Shown: in pieces, positions 5,157-36,224 of the stretch
How the letters are laid out: each line of letters begins with the position of its first letter
How positions within the stretch are numbered: position 1 is the first letter of the stretch
Source: Nitrospiraceae bacterium
Lineage (GTDB): Bacteria > Nitrospirota > Nitrospiria > Nitrospirales > Nitrospiraceae
Length of the DNA: 38,341 nt
Reading direction: 5' to 3'
Assembly (NCBI GenBank): GCA_013140715.1
Contig: JABFSG010000043.1
Coordinates: forward strand, 1 to 38,341
Notes under the pieces: generated by a model
What the model saw: the letters and a program-made list of their open reading frames with translations, nothing else
What the model was told of the DNA's origin: nothing
The model's database searches: none
Position numbers and translations under genes: made by a program

Positions 5157-5894
5157 TTATGGCTCCAGCAACGGAATCAGTTCTGCATGGCCCTGCTGGC
5201 GCGCACGATCGACCGGGCGTTGGTCTTTGGCATCCTTCGCCGACTTGTCGGCCCCTCGCATGAGCAGCATCACGATGATTTCCTGATGCCCTTGTGCTGC
5301 GGCAACATGCAGGGCGGTCCACCCGTTCGTGGTCGCCGGCCTCACATCTGCGCCCTTGTCTAACAGCAGCGCCACAATCTCCCGATGGCCTTTCGCGGCT
5401 GCGATGAGGAGCGGAGTCGCGCCGTTGCTCGTCTTCGTTTGCTTCATGTCTGCGTCGTGATTCAACAGCAGTGTTACGACATCCAGATATCCTCCCTGGG
5501 CTGCGATAAAAAGCGGGGGTTCACCGTCGTCCTCCCGCACCTGCTTTACGTCCGCGCCTTTGCCCAAGAGCAGGGCCACGATGTCTCGATGCCCCATTTC
5601 GGCTGCGATGTGGAGCGCAGTCGCGCCGTCCGCTGTTGCCCGTTTGAAATCTGCGCCTTTGCCTAAGAGTAGCGCCACGGCCTCTCCATGCCCCTTTTCG
5701 GCTGCACGGTAGAGAGGGGTTACCCCGTCCTTGTCTGCGGCGTTGACATCGGCTCCTTTTTCGATGACCCTGGTGATCTCACCCAGGTCTCCTTTGTACG
5801 CCCCTGTCAGCAGCGCTTCATCCAGCGGCTTCATGGCCAGGAGGATCGGCATGAGACCGAGCATTGCGATAAGCATGATCCAACGTTGGGTCAC
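5157..5894 (-). CDS. Exported ankyrin-repeat protein 1
   Basis: A 245-aa protein with an N-terminal hydrophobic signal segment (TQRWIMLIAMLGLMPILLA) followed by about seven ankyrin repeats of the form DGxTPLxxAAxxGHxxIVxLLLxxGADV. The start is a GTG at 5894: AAAGAG lies about 6 bases upstream, and the encoded start lines up exactly with the MTQRWI start of its neighbour. An ATG at 5915 would add an unmatched extension. Ankyrin arrays bind proteins; the partner is unknown. The signal suggests a periplasmic or membrane-anchored location. It is 60 bases downstream of a paralogue, so the two are probably co-transcribed. Confidence 0.8.
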   Translation of the reverse strand: MTQRWIMLIAMLGLMPILLAMKPLDEALLTGAYKGDLGEITRVIEKGADVNAADKDGVTPLYRAAEKGHGEAVALLLGKGADFKRATADGATALHIAAEMGHRDIVALLLGKGADVKQVREDDGEPPLFIAAQGGYLDVVTLLLNHDADMKQTKTSNGATPLLIAAAKGHREIVALLLDKGADVRPATTNGWTALHVAAAQGHQEIIVMLLMRGADKSAKDAKDQRPVDRARQQGHAELIPLLEP

Positions 5895-5954
5895 GTGACA
5901 CTCTTTAGTTGGCATGATGCGTACCAATCGAATATCTGTTTGACAACATCCTTG

Positions 5955-6902
5955 TCACGGCTTCAGGACCGGCAGTTCCAGCATCGGCACCAGCGCTTTG
6001 TGACCTTGCTGGCGCGCAAGGTCCACCGGTCTGTCTCCTGTTGTCGTCTTGACCGATTTGTCCGCTCCCTGCTTGAGCAGCAGGGCCACGATTTCTTGGT
6101 AGCCGCGTAATGCAGCGACATGCAAGGCGGTCGTGCCATTGTCCGTTGTCGCATGCTTCACATCCGCCCCGTTGTTCAACAACAGCTCCACGATGCTTTG
6201 ATGCCCCTGCTCTGCCGCCATGATGAGCGGGGTTGTGCCGTCTGCTCTGGCTTGCTTCACGTCGGCGCCGCTGTCCAACAATAGTGTCACGGTGTTTCGA
6301 TGTCCGTTCTGGGCTGCGATGAAGAGCGGGGTTGCGCCGTCCGTTCTTGCTCGCTCCACATCTGCATTGTGGGCCAGCAGCAGCGCGGCAATGTCCCGAT
6401 GTCCCTGTTGGGCTGCCATGAACAGCGAGGTTGCACCGTTCGTCCGTACTTGCTCTACGTCGGCGCCGTGGGCCAACAGCAGCTCGACAATGTCCCGATG
6501 TCCTTTTTCAGCTGCGGCGATGAGCGGGGTCATCCCGTCTGCAGCCGCCTGCTTTACGATCGCGCCGTGGACCACCAGCAGTGCCACGATCTTTCGATGG
6601 CCTTTTTCAGCTGCGGCGATGAGCGCGGTTGTCCCGTCCGTCGTCGTCTGCTTCGCGTCTGCACCGCGGGTCAACAGCAGCGAAACGATCTTTTGATGTC
6701 CTTTTTCGGCTGCGACGATGAGCGGGGTGAAGCCGCCCGTATTAGCCGCGTTGACGTCGGCTTCTTTCTTGAGCAGCGCGTTCACCTCGCTCAAGTCCCC
6801 TTTGAAGGTTGCGTTGAGCAGCGCTCTATCCACCGGCCGCATGGCCAGGAGCATCGGCATGAGTCCGAGCACCGCTGTGAGCGCTATCCACCGTTGGGTC
6901 AT
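5955..6902 (-). CDS. Exported ankyrin-repeat protein 2
   Basis: A 315-aa paralogue of the neighbouring ankyrin protein, with the signal-like start MTQRWIALTAVLGLMPMLLA and about nine ankyrin units including both caps. The C-terminal cap GDRPVDLARQQGHKALVPML is shared by all three local paralogues. AAGGAG lies 7 bases before the ATG at 6902, which decides against a longer start at 6923. The gain of roughly two extra internal repeats compared with paralogue 1 suggests expansion by recombination between nearly identical repeat units. The function is unknown. Confidence 0.82.
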   Translation of the reverse strand: MTQRWIALTAVLGLMPMLLAMRPVDRALLNATFKGDLSEVNALLKKEADVNAANTGGFTPLIVAAEKGHQKIVSLLLTRGADAKQTTTDGTTALIAAAEKGHRKIVALLVVHGAIVKQAAADGMTPLIAAAEKGHRDIVELLLAHGADVEQVRTNGATSLFMAAQQGHRDIAALLLAHNADVERARTDGATPLFIAAQNGHRNTVTLLLDSGADVKQARADGTTPLIMAAEQGHQSIVELLLNNGADVKHATTDNGTTALHVAALRGYQEIVALLLKQGADKSVKTTTGDRPVDLARQQGHKALVPMLELPVLKP

Positions 6903-6924
6903 GTGGTTCTCCTTACTTAGCAAG

Positions 6925-7110
6925 CCGTTGAGAAAGTCCGCCAGCGGTGTTCTCGCATCGTTCAGGCCCTCAACGGGGACCCGGCCGCCTCACCACTAGG
7001 CGGCGTGCACAGACTTGGTGCTCCTTATTCGTCGCACCGTGCGCCCCAGAGGGTACGTTTGGGACCTTCTTTCGCTGCGGCCTTGCTGGATGGCCTTTCT
7101 GAACAGCCTG
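6925..7110 (-). repeat. Family A palindromic element, long form (A3)
   Basis: A reverse-oriented copy running from GAGAAAGTCCGCCAGC through CGGCCGCCTCACCACTAGGC and TTATTCGTCGCACCGTGCGC to GGCCTTTCTGAACAGCCTGC. The terminal repeats are more degraded than in A1, but the long-form insert is intact. It separates ankyrin gene 3 from ankyrin gene 2. Confidence 0.75.
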
Positions 7111-7253
7111 CGATGGCTTCTGAATGAGTCTGTGAGGATCCAGACCTTGCGTTTTTATCATGCTTTAGTAGTTTGTCAACACTCTGTTAGTCAGATGCGT
7201 ACCAGCTGAAGGTCTGTCGAACGACATTGGAGGAAACGAACCCTGAACCATGG

Positions 7254-7943
7254 TTACGGTCCCAGCAAGGGCACCAGCGCGCTATGGCCCTGCTGGCGCG
7301 CTAGATCCACCGGACGTTGTCCTGTTGTCATCCTAGCCGACTTGTCCGCTCCATGTTTGAGCAGTAAGGCCACGATCTCCCGATGTCCGTAATAGGCAGC
7401 GATATGCAAGGCGGTCCTACCGTTCGTCGTTTTCTGCTTCGCATCTGCGCTGTGGCTCAACAACAGCGCCACGATCTCCCGATGCCCGCCTTGGGTTGCC
7501 ATGAAGAGCGGGGTCGTTCCATCGTTTCTCCTCGCCGGCCTCGCGTCTGCGCCGTGCTCCAATAACAGCGTGACGATTTCCCGATGCCCCTGCTGGGCTG
7601 CGAGGTAGAGCGGGGTCACGCCGTCATTTGTCATTCCTTGGTTCGCATCCGCGCCGCGCTCCAACAGCAGCGCGACGATCTCTCGATGTCCATCCTGGGC
7701 TGCCAGGAGGAGCGGGGTCGCACCCTCCTTACTCGCTGCATTGATGTTGGTTTCTTCCTTGAGGAGCGCTTGCACCTCACCGAGATTACCTTTGAACACC
7801 GCTGTCCGCAGTGCAGCCTCTTTGCCGGACATGACGGGAAGATCGGATTGCGTCGCACAGCTCGCAAGTAAACCTACTGCGCATGTTGTTGTAAGTAAGA
7901 GGAGCGTCAGCCGCTTCATAGCAAACGTTGAGTTTTTCTTCAC
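7254..7943 (-). CDS. Ankyrin-repeat lipoprotein (ankyrin protein 3)
   Basis: A 229-aa protein with a lipoprotein signal (RLTLLLLTTTCAVGLLASC, lipobox LLASC) and about six ankyrin units ending in the shared cap GQRPVDLARQQGHSALVPLL. The start is a GTG at 7943 with GGAGAGGA about 9 bases upstream; the internal ATG at 7919 has no ribosome site. It is probably the first gene of the three-paralogue minus-strand group, although a repeat (A3) lies between it and the next. It is predicted to be membrane anchored, facing the periplasm. Confidence 0.82.
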   Translation of the reverse strand: MKKNSTFAMKRLTLLLLTTTCAVGLLASCATQSDLPVMSGKEAALRTAVFKGNLGEVQALLKEETNINAASKEGATPLLLAAQDGHREIVALLLERGADANQGMTNDGVTPLYLAAQQGHREIVTLLLEHGADARPARRNDGTTPLFMATQGGHREIVALLLSHSADAKQKTTNGRTALHIAAYYGHREIVALLLKHGADKSARMTTGQRPVDLARQQGHSALVPLLGP

Positions 7944-26316: not shown

Positions 26317-26868
26317 CTAGAAACTGGAAGTCGGCGTCAAATGCACTTCGATGCGGGGGTTATCTTTATCGATGTACTTATAGAGGTGGGTTTCGACAAT
26401 GCGGTTGTCGTTGATGCCGAGCCCTTCACAGAGGGCATCCTGTGCGATCTTGAGCCCGCCATCGACATCGCGTCGGAGGGCCGAGGTAAAATAGAATCGG
26501 ATGGACAGAGTGAGCCATTCGGACTGGAGCCTTGTAAGAAGGGTAGTCCGGTGAGTGGACTGTGCCAGTTTCAACCACACGAGTTGTCCTACGTGAATCT
26601 TATAGGCACGCCCGGCCGATGAGATCAATCGTCGACCGTTCACTGTGGCATATTGATGGTTGACGCTGGGAGGCACAGGGAGGGTCAAGGTTATCGAGTG
26701 ACTCTCGGTCGGTGGGTGGGGTAATGGGGAGACGGGTATACGGGTGATCGGAGCCGTTCTGATGGGGATACGCGCCACCGTAGCGCTCTTGCCGGGGCTT
26801 CGGTAGGAAGCCATGCGAACGGCCCGTGGAGAGGAAGGAAATCGGGTCGGGCGCCGGAACGTAGGCAT
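26317..26868 (-). CDS. RusA-family Holliday-junction endonuclease-like protein
   Basis: A 183-aa protein, third in the HTH-mraZ operon. The RusA fold is clear from about residue 55: ITLTLPVPPSVNHQYATVNG, YKIHVGQLVWLK, then the acidic active-site region RRDVDGGLKIAQDALCEGLG and INDNRIVETHLYKYIDKDNP. The Asp pair in RRDVD and the Asp in NDN correspond to the RusA triad, although the usual Asn after DxD is Gly. The N-terminal 55 residues are Pro/Arg-rich and unlike the family; the start is uncertain (ATG at 26868, 11 bases after the mraZ stop, or 26814). RusA usually belongs to prophages and resolves recombination junctions. Confidence 0.75.
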   Translation of the reverse strand: MPTFRRPTRFPSSPRAVRMASYRSPGKSATVARIPIRTAPITRIPVSPLPHPPTESHSITLTLPVPPSVNHQYATVNGRRLISSAGRAYKIHVGQLVWLKLAQSTHRTTLLTRLQSEWLTLSIRFYFTSALRRDVDGGLKIAQDALCEGLGINDNRIVETHLYKYIDKDNPRIEVHLTPTSSF

Positions 26869-26878
26869 GGGTTTGAAC

Positions 26879-27319
26879 TTACAGGAGATTGAGGATCTTG
26901 GACATGTTCTGCTCGTACCGCTCTTCGGATTGAGAGATATAGCGACGCCAGGTGCTTGGATTCCAGATCTCCATGCGGTGGTACAAGCCAACCAGAATGA
27001 TTTCCTGGTCTTCATCTAACGGGATAATTTTTCTCAGCCTGCTTGGGATCAGGATGCGTCCGGCCTTGTCTATTTCCGAGGTGCCGGCCTCTGAGACGAC
27101 GAAGTGCATGAACAGTCGATTCTGGTCTTCGTCGAGCGTGGCTTTCGTCCGTTCCAGGACCTTCTCCCACTCTTTCATGGAATAGATGAGCGTCGATTCT
27201 TCCGGACCTTTCAGGAAGACAACAGCCTGTCCCTCCGATTCGATCTGCTCACGGATCGGCGACGGAACGATGAACCGTCCTTTTTCATCCACTTTGCAGA
27301 GATATTCGCCGGCGAACAT
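26879..27319 (-). CDS. mraZ: MraZ transcriptional regulator
   Basis: A 146-aa protein made of two AbrB-like SpoVT/MraZ domains: MFAGEYLCKVDEKGRFIVPS (residues 1-20) and SEIDKAGRILIPSRLRKI in the second half, each with the DxKGR-type motif. MraZ binds the promoter of the division/cell-wall cluster and normally is its first gene. Here it is followed not by rsmH/ftsL but by a RusA-like gene and is preceded by an HTH gene, so it is detached from that cluster. AAAGGA lies upstream; a TTG at 27322 is an alternative start. Confidence 0.9.
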   Translation of the reverse strand: MFAGEYLCKVDEKGRFIVPSPIREQIESEGQAVVFLKGPEESTLIYSMKEWEKVLERTKATLDEDQNRLFMHFVVSEAGTSEIDKAGRILIPSRLRKIIPLDEDQEIILVGLYHRMEIWNPSTWRRYISQSEERYEQNMSKILNLL

Positions 27320-27335
27320 CAATGTATTGTATCCT

Positions 27336-27533
27336 TTACGAAACCAGAGTGGTTCTGGTGCGGTCGCGAATCCACTGTTCCAGATCCGAACGTACGAAGC
27401 GCCATTCTTTTCCCAGCTTGAAAGCGGGAATCTGACGACTCCGCAGGTAACGATAGAGCGTACGCTGCGTGATCTTGAGATAGAGGCAGGTTTCCTCTGC
27501 CGTCATCAGCTCGCTCTTGGGCTCTCTGACCAT
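27336..27533 (-). CDS. Excisionase-type helix-turn-helix protein
   Basis: A 65-aa DNA-binding protein of the MerR/excisionase (HTH_17) type. The core is LMTAEETCLYLKITQRTLYR then YLRSRQIPAFKLGKEWRFVR and DLEQWIRD. Many small proteins of this kind regulate mobile elements or act as local transcription factors. CAGG lies 7 bases before the ATG at 27533; a GTG at 27548 has no ribosome site. It is first in a three-gene operon with mraZ (13-16 bases downstream) and the RusA-like gene, behind a clear promoter. Confidence 0.85.
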   Translation of the reverse strand: MVREPKSELMTAEETCLYLKITQRTLYRYLRSRQIPAFKLGKEWRFVRSDLEQWIRDRTRTTLVS

Positions 27534-27591
27534 TAAAAAACCTGGCACGATAGGGGTTCATATGCCTCACGAGGCTTCAGATACTGTCGCC

Positions 27592-27620
27592 AGAGTAGGG
27601 AAACTAGAAGGATCTGTCAA
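27592..27620 (-). promoter_or_regulatory. Promoter of the HTH-mraZ-RusA operon
   Basis: On the minus strand, a perfect TTGACA, a 17-base spacer and TACTCT. Transcription would start near 27585, about 50 bases before the HTH start codon. The leader contains the short palindrome GCCTC-AC-GAGGC. Confidence 0.6.
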
Positions 27621-27643
27621 GTGAAAATATAAGACAATGCCTG

Positions 27644-27988
27644 TCACAGGCTGTCAGTACCGTCTGTTTCTAGACTGTCTGTTTCGCCTGACTCCATCGC
27701 CTCTGCGATGTCGTCGCCGAGGTCTTCACCCATCTCTTCGCCCATTGTTTTCATGAATCGCGCCATGCTGTCGGGATCATTCTCATCGAGTCCGGCCAGA
27801 TTGCTGGGATCTGCTAAGGCCTCAAGCCGAGCCTCTTCGGATTTCGGCGACGCGAATCGAGACAGAATTCGTTCAACATGGGCGCTGGTACAATGGGCGC
27901 AAGCTGCCGGCGCCTGATTCGCCAAGTTCAATACAAGGACCGTGCTGCGTTTTTTACAGTCGAGGCAGCGATATTCGTAGAGCGGCAT
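27644..27988 (-). CDS. FmdB-type zinc ribbon protein
   Basis: A 114-aa protein with the FmdB/CxxC_CxxC zinc-ribbon motif at the N-terminus: MPLYEYRCLDCKKR ... CAHCTSAHVERILSRF. A long acidic tail rich in Glu, Asp, Ser and Thr follows (about residues 50-114), longer than in the shortest members. The function is unknown; FmdB was first noted as a putative regulator. AGGA lies about 9 bases before the ATG, and the comF stop is only three bases away, so both belong to one operon. Confidence 0.85.
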   Translation of the reverse strand: MPLYEYRCLDCKKRSTVLVLNLANQAPAACAHCTSAHVERILSRFASPKSEEARLEALADPSNLAGLDENDPDSMARFMKTMGEEMGEDLGDDIAEAMESGETDSLETDGTDSL

Positions 27989-27991
27989 GGA

Positions 27992-28813
27992 TTATATTCC
28001 TATGGTCGTCAAGGGTCGGGCCACTTGCTTGGCAAAGAGGCGATCCGGTACCAGGCTGGTATCGATAGTTCTGGCAAGTGTCAGAGCAAAGACAGGGCCG
28101 CTGCCGGCTTTACGCAGGGCCTTCGCACATTCGTTCAGTGTCGTACCGGTGGTGAAGACGTCGTCCACGAGGAGGATGCGTTTTCCCGCGAGACTCTGTG
28201 GACTGCGGACTTCGAACGCTTTCCGTAAATTTTGCAACCGTGCTTGCCTCGTTAATGTGGTTTGGGGATCGGTGGCCGTGCTTCTCACGAGGTTGGTGGC
28301 CGAAACTGGGAGGGCCAGATGGCGGCTGAGCTGATCGGCCAGCAGCAGAGATTGATTGAATTCACGCGCTCGTAAACGGGATGGGTGTAGGGGCACAGGG
28401 ATGATTACGTCGACGTCGATCCCACCTGGTAGGGCATTGATCATCAAGCGAGCGAGTGGCCGTGCCAGCGTATGTTTTCCTCGATACTTAAACGAGCAAA
28501 TGGCTTCTTGCAGTGGCGGAAGATAGGGAAAGAGCGTCCAAGCCCGTTGAAAATCCGGTGGCCGTTCCTGGCACGGTTGGCATTGATGATTTGGCGTATA
28601 GCTCGTAGCGGCCAGCGAGACAAACGGCTGATCGCAGCGGGCACAAGTCGGTTGCTGAAGCGGGCGGATGGTGTGCCAGCATGCGGTACAGAAGAAGGGG
28701 ACAGGGTCGGCGCTGAGAGATCGTCCGCAGGCAAGGCATTCCACCGGCAATACAAACCGGAGGGCTTGACGGCACCATCCGGCGAATAGATCTTTTCCGT
28801 TGTTACCGAACAT
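27992..28813 (-). CDS. comF: ComF family phosphoribosyltransferase-like protein
   Basis: A 273-aa protein. An N-terminal zinc finger (CLACGRSL ... FFCTACWHTI ... CARCDQPF, with further CxxC at HQCQPCQ) precedes a type I phosphoribosyltransferase domain. The PRPP loop is ILLVDDVFTTGTTLNECAKA. ComF relatives take part in natural transformation and in DNA processing of incoming strands. The ATG is used because it gives a normal ComF N-terminus; the ribosome site is weak. A promoter lies 36 bases upstream and the FmdB gene follows. Confidence 0.88.
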   Translation of the reverse strand: MFGNNGKDLFAGWCRQALRFVLPVECLACGRSLSADPVPFFCTACWHTIRPLQQPTCARCDQPFVSLAATSYTPNHQCQPCQERPPDFQRAWTLFPYLPPLQEAICSFKYRGKHTLARPLARLMINALPGGIDVDVIIPVPLHPSRLRAREFNQSLLLADQLSRHLALPVSATNLVRSTATDPQTTLTRQARLQNLRKAFEVRSPQSLAGKRILLVDDVFTTGTTLNECAKALRKAGSGPVFALTLARTIDTSLVPDRLFAKQVARPLTTIGI

Positions 28814-34904: not shown

Positions 34905-36215
34905 TTAGGATACGGTTGTCACGTAGTAGGTGAAGATGAGGGTCAGACAGGTTGTCGCAAGTGTCAGCCCTCCGACCCCCAAGGCCGCCACCTGCCACTG
35001 TAAGAGGGACAAGAGCTCCTTTTCGCTCCGGTCCGAGATGATGAACGCATGGTCTTGGCTGCTTCCGATGTATAGGCCGGAGGAGTTTTCGGCAGGTTTC
35101 TTTGTATCATGTTGTTCATGGGCGGTTCCGAGAACATAGACCTGCTCATCCGGCAGGATGAACGATTCTCGGCAACGTAAGGTATGGTTCCCCATCCATT
35201 GTTCGGTCGAAATCCCCAGTCGATTCAGGCCTGCAATGGTGGTGGGAGGTAAGTCTCCAAGCCAATTGCTTCGAGAGGTATGTTCGTCCGGCAAGATAAG
35301 CTCAGCACCTTGGGGCATGACGGGTACTCGGCCTGTTGCATCGCTCACAAAGAATGACTGTTCGGAGGTGCCCGTAGCAAGGGTTTCCCACCGTGCCGGC
35401 TGCTCTGAGCCTAACCGTTCTTCAACTGTATAGGAGTAGAAGACACAGAGAAGTCCGCTGAAGGGTGCGGAGAGGAGACCTTCCTCTGGTTGTGCTCGCC
35501 CACTGATCTCGACCAGCCCAAGAGCGAGCGAACGAATGGTCGAGGTCGGAATGTTTTCGATCCAGCGTTTCCGTCGGTGAATGGTCCATCCATAGATGAG
35601 GAGTCCAAGGCCTCCCATGCTACCGGCAGTCAGGTACAGCAGGGCTTGATCAGGCGGACGGATCCATTGAGCGCTGCTCGTTGTCTTACCGATCCCTGCG
35701 ACGAAAATGAGCCCGCCGATCACAAGGGCCAATCCGAAGAACAGGGTCCAGAACCACAGGCTCTGTCGGTTGGCTCCTGCCTTGTTCAACTGGGGCTGCT
35801 TGCGATGCGTGTCTCTGCTTGCGCTATGTCTCATTGCAGCTTGAGTGTAGAGCTCGGTCTCTTGGAGCTGGATAGGAACTGCAGCGCCTCGGTAGGTCTC
35901 ATTCAGACGAGTGAGGCTTCCGTGAGGCAGCCACCACCCGTGACAGGAATCGCAGCTGAGGAAGGACGTGTGAGATACAGTCTCAGACTCCATGTGATTC
36001 CCGCATCGAGGACAGAGTGTCTCTGTTCTGACCGCGACGCCTCCCGCGTCACCACTCGCCCGCGTCAGCGAGAGGTAATCTTCCACGAAAAAATTCACCT
36101 CTCCCACATCGAGCCAAAGTCCGTGTCCCGAGATACAGACATCGAGCCCCGGACCCTGGTTTGTCGGAACCTCAATCAGGTCCTCTTGGCAATCGAGACA
36201 TTTCATGGTGAGCAT
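34905..36215 (-). CDS. Zinc-ribbon and GIDE-domain membrane protein
   Basis: A 436-aa protein. The N-terminus has two TFIIB-type zinc ribbons (CLDCQEDL ... GHGLWLD and CPRCGNHM ... CDSCHGWWLPHG, about residues 5-100). A membrane helix follows (WTLFFGLALVIGGLIFVAGI), then another (TAGSMGGLGLLIYGWTI). A GIDE domain comes next: LSAPFSGLLCVFYSYTVEE, WETLATG, FFVSDATGRVPVMPQGAELI, the family pattern also found in the outer domain of eukaryotic mitochondrial MULAN. A C-terminal membrane helix ends it. GIDE may bind or modify lipid or protein partners; no RING domain is present. It is first in the operon with lemA. The start may be 36206 if the leader is as short as it looks. Confidence 0.8.
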   Translation of the reverse strand: MLTMKCLDCQEDLIEVPTNQGPGLDVCISGHGLWLDVGEVNFFVEDYLSLTRASGDAGGVAVRTETLCPRCGNHMESETVSHTSFLSCDSCHGWWLPHGSLTRLNETYRGAAVPIQLQETELYTQAAMRHSASRDTHRKQPQLNKAGANRQSLWFWTLFFGLALVIGGLIFVAGIGKTTSSAQWIRPPDQALLYLTAGSMGGLGLLIYGWTIHRRKRWIENIPTSTIRSLALGLVEISGRAQPEEGLLSAPFSGLLCVFYSYTVEERLGSEQPARWETLATGTSEQSFFVSDATGRVPVMPQGAELILPDEHTSRSNWLGDLPPTTIAGLNRLGISTEQWMGNHTLRCRESFILPDEQVYVLGTAHEQHDTKKPAENSSGLYIGSSQDHAFIISDRSEKELLSLLQWQVAALGVGGLTLATTCLTLIFTYYVTTVS

Positions 36216-36224
36216 GGTCTTCAA

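Follow-up and report, generated by a model that had tools for sequence, protein, structure and literature searches.

The minus strand of a 38,341-nucleotide stretch of DNA from a Nitrospiraceae bacterium (the whole stretch is referred to here as the window) carries at positions 26317-27620 a genuine operon of three genes, which encode a small winged-HTH protein (HTH), the regulator MraZ and a RusA-family Holliday junction resolvase. Taken as a whole, the explanation that we favor, in which this operon is a chromosomal regulatory and repair unit ancestral to the order Nitrospirales, is probable. MraZ is among the most conserved bacterial regulators yet among the least understood, and its gene usually comes first in the operon that it regulates. 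In the Nitrospirales the gene would have moved away from the front of the division cluster, MraZ would still control that cluster in trans, and the rusA product would be the general resolvase of the lineage, having taken over upon the loss of ruvC with RuvA and RuvB kept.

The gene order along the minus strand, on which all of the features of the operon lie, is comF, fmdB, HTH, mraZ, rusA and then an HD-GYP gene. The first gene of the operon (27336-27533) encodes a 65 amino acid HTH_17/BldC-like regulator (PF12728, 61.7 bits; TIGR01764) that consists of a single HTH_17/MerR-like winged HTH without an effector domain. The second, mraZ (26879-27319), encodes a protein of 146 amino acids with two MraZ/AbrB-like domains carrying DxxGR motifs; it matches PF02381 twice, with 97 bits in all, and scores 98.5 bits against TIGR00242, just over the cut-off of 98.35. 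The closest named MraZ record, from Nitrospira sp. CG24E, is 99% identical. The upstream neighbors were assigned by profile matches and neighborhood comparison as a gene for an FmdB-type zinc-ribbon protein (27644-27988), which is the usual upstream neighbor, and a gene for a ComF-family phosphoribosyltransferase (27992-28813), which is conserved in this position.

A preliminary description of this DNA had the operon begin with the HTH gene behind one clear promoter, which is roughly right but needs two qualifications. The promoter, TTGACA-17-TACTCT at 27592-27620, is kept in position across orthologues, with TAGAAT as the -10 element in many relatives, but is too weak for a consensus promoter scanner, where it fell below threshold. 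Because the genes immediately upstream, comF and fmdB, have the same orientation, it is also possible that transcription from them runs through into HTH-mraZ-rusA.

The third gene, rusA (26317-26868), most likely starts at the ATG at 26868, about 10 nucleotides past the mraZ stop codon, giving a predicted protein of 183 amino acids; a start 8-10 nucleotides after mraZ is common to most of the relatives. An alternative start at 27015, inside mraZ, was rejected since the relatives share the ATG at 26868. The protein scores 30.3 bits against PF05866 (cut-off 22.8), and the catalytic residues D84, D86, K90 and D104 (alignment numbering), which we take to be D70, D72, K76 and D91 in E. coli RusA numbering, are invariant in 19 aligned sequences. 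The AlphaFold model aligns with the E. coli RusA structures 2h8c and 1q8r with a TMt of 0.77-0.82, and a Foldseek search gave an E value of 2e-9 for 2h8c and no other strong structural match. The Nitrospirales and E. coli proteins are alike in fold and in the DxD...K...D catalytic residues, but they share only about 27% identity, and the E. coli protein has no equivalent of the first 50 or so residues, which are basic, rich in Arg, Pro and Ser, nearly devoid of acidic residues and predicted with low confidence. This basic extension is present in most of the Nitrospirales, and a stretch like SPRAVR-SYRNPDK within it is conserved in the genus.

The pairing of mraZ with rusA is a fixed trait of the order Nitrospirales: rusA follows mraZ in all of the loci examined that lie on a long enough contig. 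An apparent loss was ruled out for four genomes of the genus and family (G002, G024, G034 and G035), though not for G040, as contig ends or scaffold N runs fall at the site in these four. The arrangement thus occurs in many genomes besides this one, RusA is conserved along with it, and the suggestion that the two genes form a conserved unit is borne out. The other members of the neighborhood are more variable, with the HTH gene found in two of four families (seen in f1 and f2, not in f3 and f4) and fmdB patchy across the order. Distances computed over 49 genomes from MraZ, from RusA and from the unlinked RsmH agree with one another (r of 0.92-0.96), far above permutations, which is the pattern that vertical inheritance gives and from which we conclude that mraZ-rusA is vertically inherited.

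The partners of mraZ had been taken to point to a mobile element, in which an HTH excisionase and a phage RusA were recently inserted together with a captured mraZ. Both RusA and the HTH protein do match phage PHROG families, and the structural model of the HTH protein also matches the excisionase RdfS. An integrase, transposase or tRNA was not found among the neighbors scanned, no partner integrase for an excisionase (Xis/RDF) was present in the open reading frames scanned over about 20-36 kb of the window, and a pattern scan gave no viral relative of the operon. With flanks that are conserved across the family, and with order-wide conservation and congruent distances that contradict a recent insertion, a mobile element or prophage remnant is very improbable. 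Of the related proposal of a domesticated recombination module, the domestication of a phage-type RusA is plausible; its best PHROG family is a phage RusA, although identity to the proteins of phages is only about 33%. MraZ matches also exist in phage records, mostly unannotated.

The HTH protein resembles a BldC-like regulator no less than an excisionase, as judged from its structural model, which gave weak matches (E of about 0.02) to both BldC (6ama) and RdfS (8dgl). A search of PDB sequences with the protein returned no match. The MAD1 model of the MADS anti-phage defense system scored 66.7 bits, below the NCBIfam cut-off of 80, and PADLOC gave a weak mad1 match for the HTH protein and none for mraZ or rusA. 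BldC of Streptomyces binds direct repeats in a head-to-tail manner (PMC5859096), and the protein studied here is like BldC in being a lone winged-HTH domain, about 65-70 residues long. Directly upstream of the -35 element lies a triplet, TGRCA-N5-TGRCA-N5-TGNCA, that scores 13-14 of 14 in 84 of the 114 loci with an HTH gene (some of them from the same genomes); in 25 loci that lack the HTH gene it reaches at most 10 of 14, and in shuffled sequences at most 12. In the window the putative operator, assigned by motif score, is TGACA-N5-TGACA-N5-TGTCT at 27632-27656, overlapping the 3' end of fmdB. The 10-bp spacing of these repeats differs from the 9-bp sites of BldC, as does their sequence, and the third unit is inverted in Nitrospira. 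The triplet is a reasonable candidate for the operator of the HTH protein, and the regulator, where present, would probably set the expression of the operon through these repeats. The co-occurrence of gene and motif is confounded with phylogeny, because both follow the same families, and is not an independent sign of binding.

The detachment of mraZ from the division and cell wall (dcw) cluster, noted in the preliminary description, is confirmed by the rest of the genome. The copy in the operon is the only mraZ, so that there is no second one in the dcw cluster, and rsmH lies with ftsL and ftsI on a separate contig with no mraZ ahead of it. The usual arrangement elsewhere in the phylum, seen in 43 of 44 loci and among them in three class relatives, has mraZ directly upstream of rsmH, so that on this comparison of loci the detached gene is a derived state in the Nitrospirales. 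The relatives with mraZ before rsmH also have a triplet resembling an MraZ box upstream of mraZ. An mraZ gene at the head of the dcw cluster with its own box was not found in the Nitrospirales; this is a trait of gene context and not of the protein family.

The consensus for the MraZ box was presumed from E. coli work to be TGGGN repeats with a 10-bp period. Upstream of rsmH, three TGGG-like repeats at 10-bp steps match at least 10 of 12 positions in 50 of 56 Nitrospirales genomes, 41 of these 50 reaching 11 of 12, and the remaining six of the 56 have a weak box or none. Dinucleotide shuffles scored at least 10 in 1.5% of cases and at least 11 in 0%. In ten genomes inspected, the first repeat begins 10-12 nucleotides after the -10 element of a near-perfect rsmH promoter, TTGACA-16-TATACT; the upstream DNA of rsmH with its box reads TGGGAGAAAGTGGGTGTATCTGG. 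Upstream of the Nitrospirales mraZ operons, MraZ box scores are at chance level. A wider regulon is not claimed, as a search of the whole genome of the window gave four matches (two of them overlapping) against one in the control.

Since the box is kept at rsmH and missing at the mraZ operon, the most likely reading is that MraZ works on the division cluster in trans and has ceased to regulate itself; the usual autoregulation would have been lost, because its own operon has no MraZ box. MraZ would bind the three-repeat box just downstream of the rsmH promoter and, most likely, repress the dcw cluster by occlusion or as a road-block. Repression is preferred from the position of the box, which extends over the first bases to be transcribed, a place from which a repressor would block. 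That an mraZ at a distance is able to act is known from Neisseria elongata, where an ectopic mraZ works in trans; there it is an activator and not a repressor (PMC9395523), so the sign of the regulation is uncertain. Against action in trans, an mraZ mutant of Mycoplasma genitalium was complemented in cis only (PMC8475190). The Nitrospirales resemble the E. coli type of MraZ-controlled dcw cluster (mraZ-rsmH-ftsL-ftsI...) in the two AbrB-like domains of the protein and in having TGGG repeats, one every 10 bp, ahead of the dcw genes, but differ in that mraZ sits elsewhere, its own promoter is boxless and rusA follows it. With mraZ apart, its own box gone and the dcw box kept, the order offers a natural experiment on MraZ without feedback.

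RusA is likely to be the housekeeping Holliday junction resolvase of the Nitrospirales, apparently instead of RuvC, judging from the distribution of the two families. A search for RuvC (PF02075) was negative in all 61 Nitrospirales genomes searched and positive in 8 of 14 control genomes, and RuvC is present in 102 of the 111 genomes sampled from the rest of the phylum (71 of 73 of those of good quality). RusA shows the mirror image, with profile matches at E≤1e-55 in each of the 37 Nitrospirales genomes in that sample and two weak matches in the 111 others. RuvA occurs in every one of the 41 good Nitrospirales genomes. In the genome of the window yebC is followed directly by ruvA, with ruvC missing between them and ruvB two genes on; the class relatives G173, G183 and G188 have the order yebC-ruvC-ruvA. 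The gene between ruvA and ruvB (L284:3874-4362) encodes a short, Cys-rich, secreted-looking protein.

Earlier surveys identified organisms with RuvAB but without RuvC or RecU, and suggested RusA or YqgF in their place (PMC3403352, PMC1193525). RusA could be a minor or specialized nuclease, with another enzyme such as YqgF as the main junction resolvase; YqgF has been proposed for genomes in which RuvC and RecU are missing (PMC1193525) and is discussed as a putative Deinococcus resolvase (PMC9601230). YqgF coexists with RuvC or RecU in most genomes, however, so is no simple substitute (PMC1193525), and the reciprocal distribution of RusA and RuvC within the phylum also makes a minor role for RusA unlikely. 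The preferred role of RusA as general resolvase has a parallel in the RecU-type replacement of RuvC in the Firmicutes, where RuvAB is likewise kept and an unrelated nuclease from a distant locus stands in for RuvC, but the candidate substitute here is RusA, whose cleavage activity we infer from its sequence. The RusA family has been described as seldom present in the genomes of bacteria and as linked to prophages (PMC1193525), whereas in the Nitrospirales, and unlike in E. coli, it is order-wide, with one chromosomal copy in almost every genome. A candidate lineage-wide swap of RuvC for a phage-type RusA bears on DNA repair in nitrite-oxidizing and comammox bacteria. The move of mraZ, the gain of rusA and the loss of ruvC all map to one branch, and for this reason their order and any causal link between them are inseparable.

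Why mraZ and rusA stay together is a separate question. There is close to an even chance that the neighborhood is a historical accident, in which MraZ would control the dcw genes from a distance and RusA would resolve junctions, but their co-transcription would mean nothing more than a shared promoter kept by drift; this is compatible with our explanation except for the coupling of the two genes. Plain retention of synteny does explain part of the linkage, since comF, fmdB and other unrelated neighbors are also kept over part of the order, but mraZ and rusA remain paired where fmdB, HTH and, in some loci, comF are gone, over four families and MraZ identities of 50-100%, with a gap of 8-10 nucleotides in most loci. 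Shared control of division and junction resolution by one signal would be an attractive reason for the coupling, with simple retention of synteny a serious alternative. A link between junction resolution and division, as the preliminary description envisaged, is possible, the best direct hint being the shared operon; our literature search found no paper linking MraZ with RusA. One rather doubtful version of such a link resembles a checkpoint, in which one signal (through the HTH protein where present) would raise both MraZ, which would restrain the division genes in trans, and RusA, which alone would resolve the junctions of the chromosome, and division would be held until they are resolved.

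Two further features were observed elsewhere in the window. Three adjoining ankyrin-repeat genes at 5157-7943 have similar, signal-peptide-like starts and are apparently paralogues, and a GIDE (E3 ubiquitin ligase-like) domain occurs in the product of the gene at 34905-36224, which adjoins a LemA gene.
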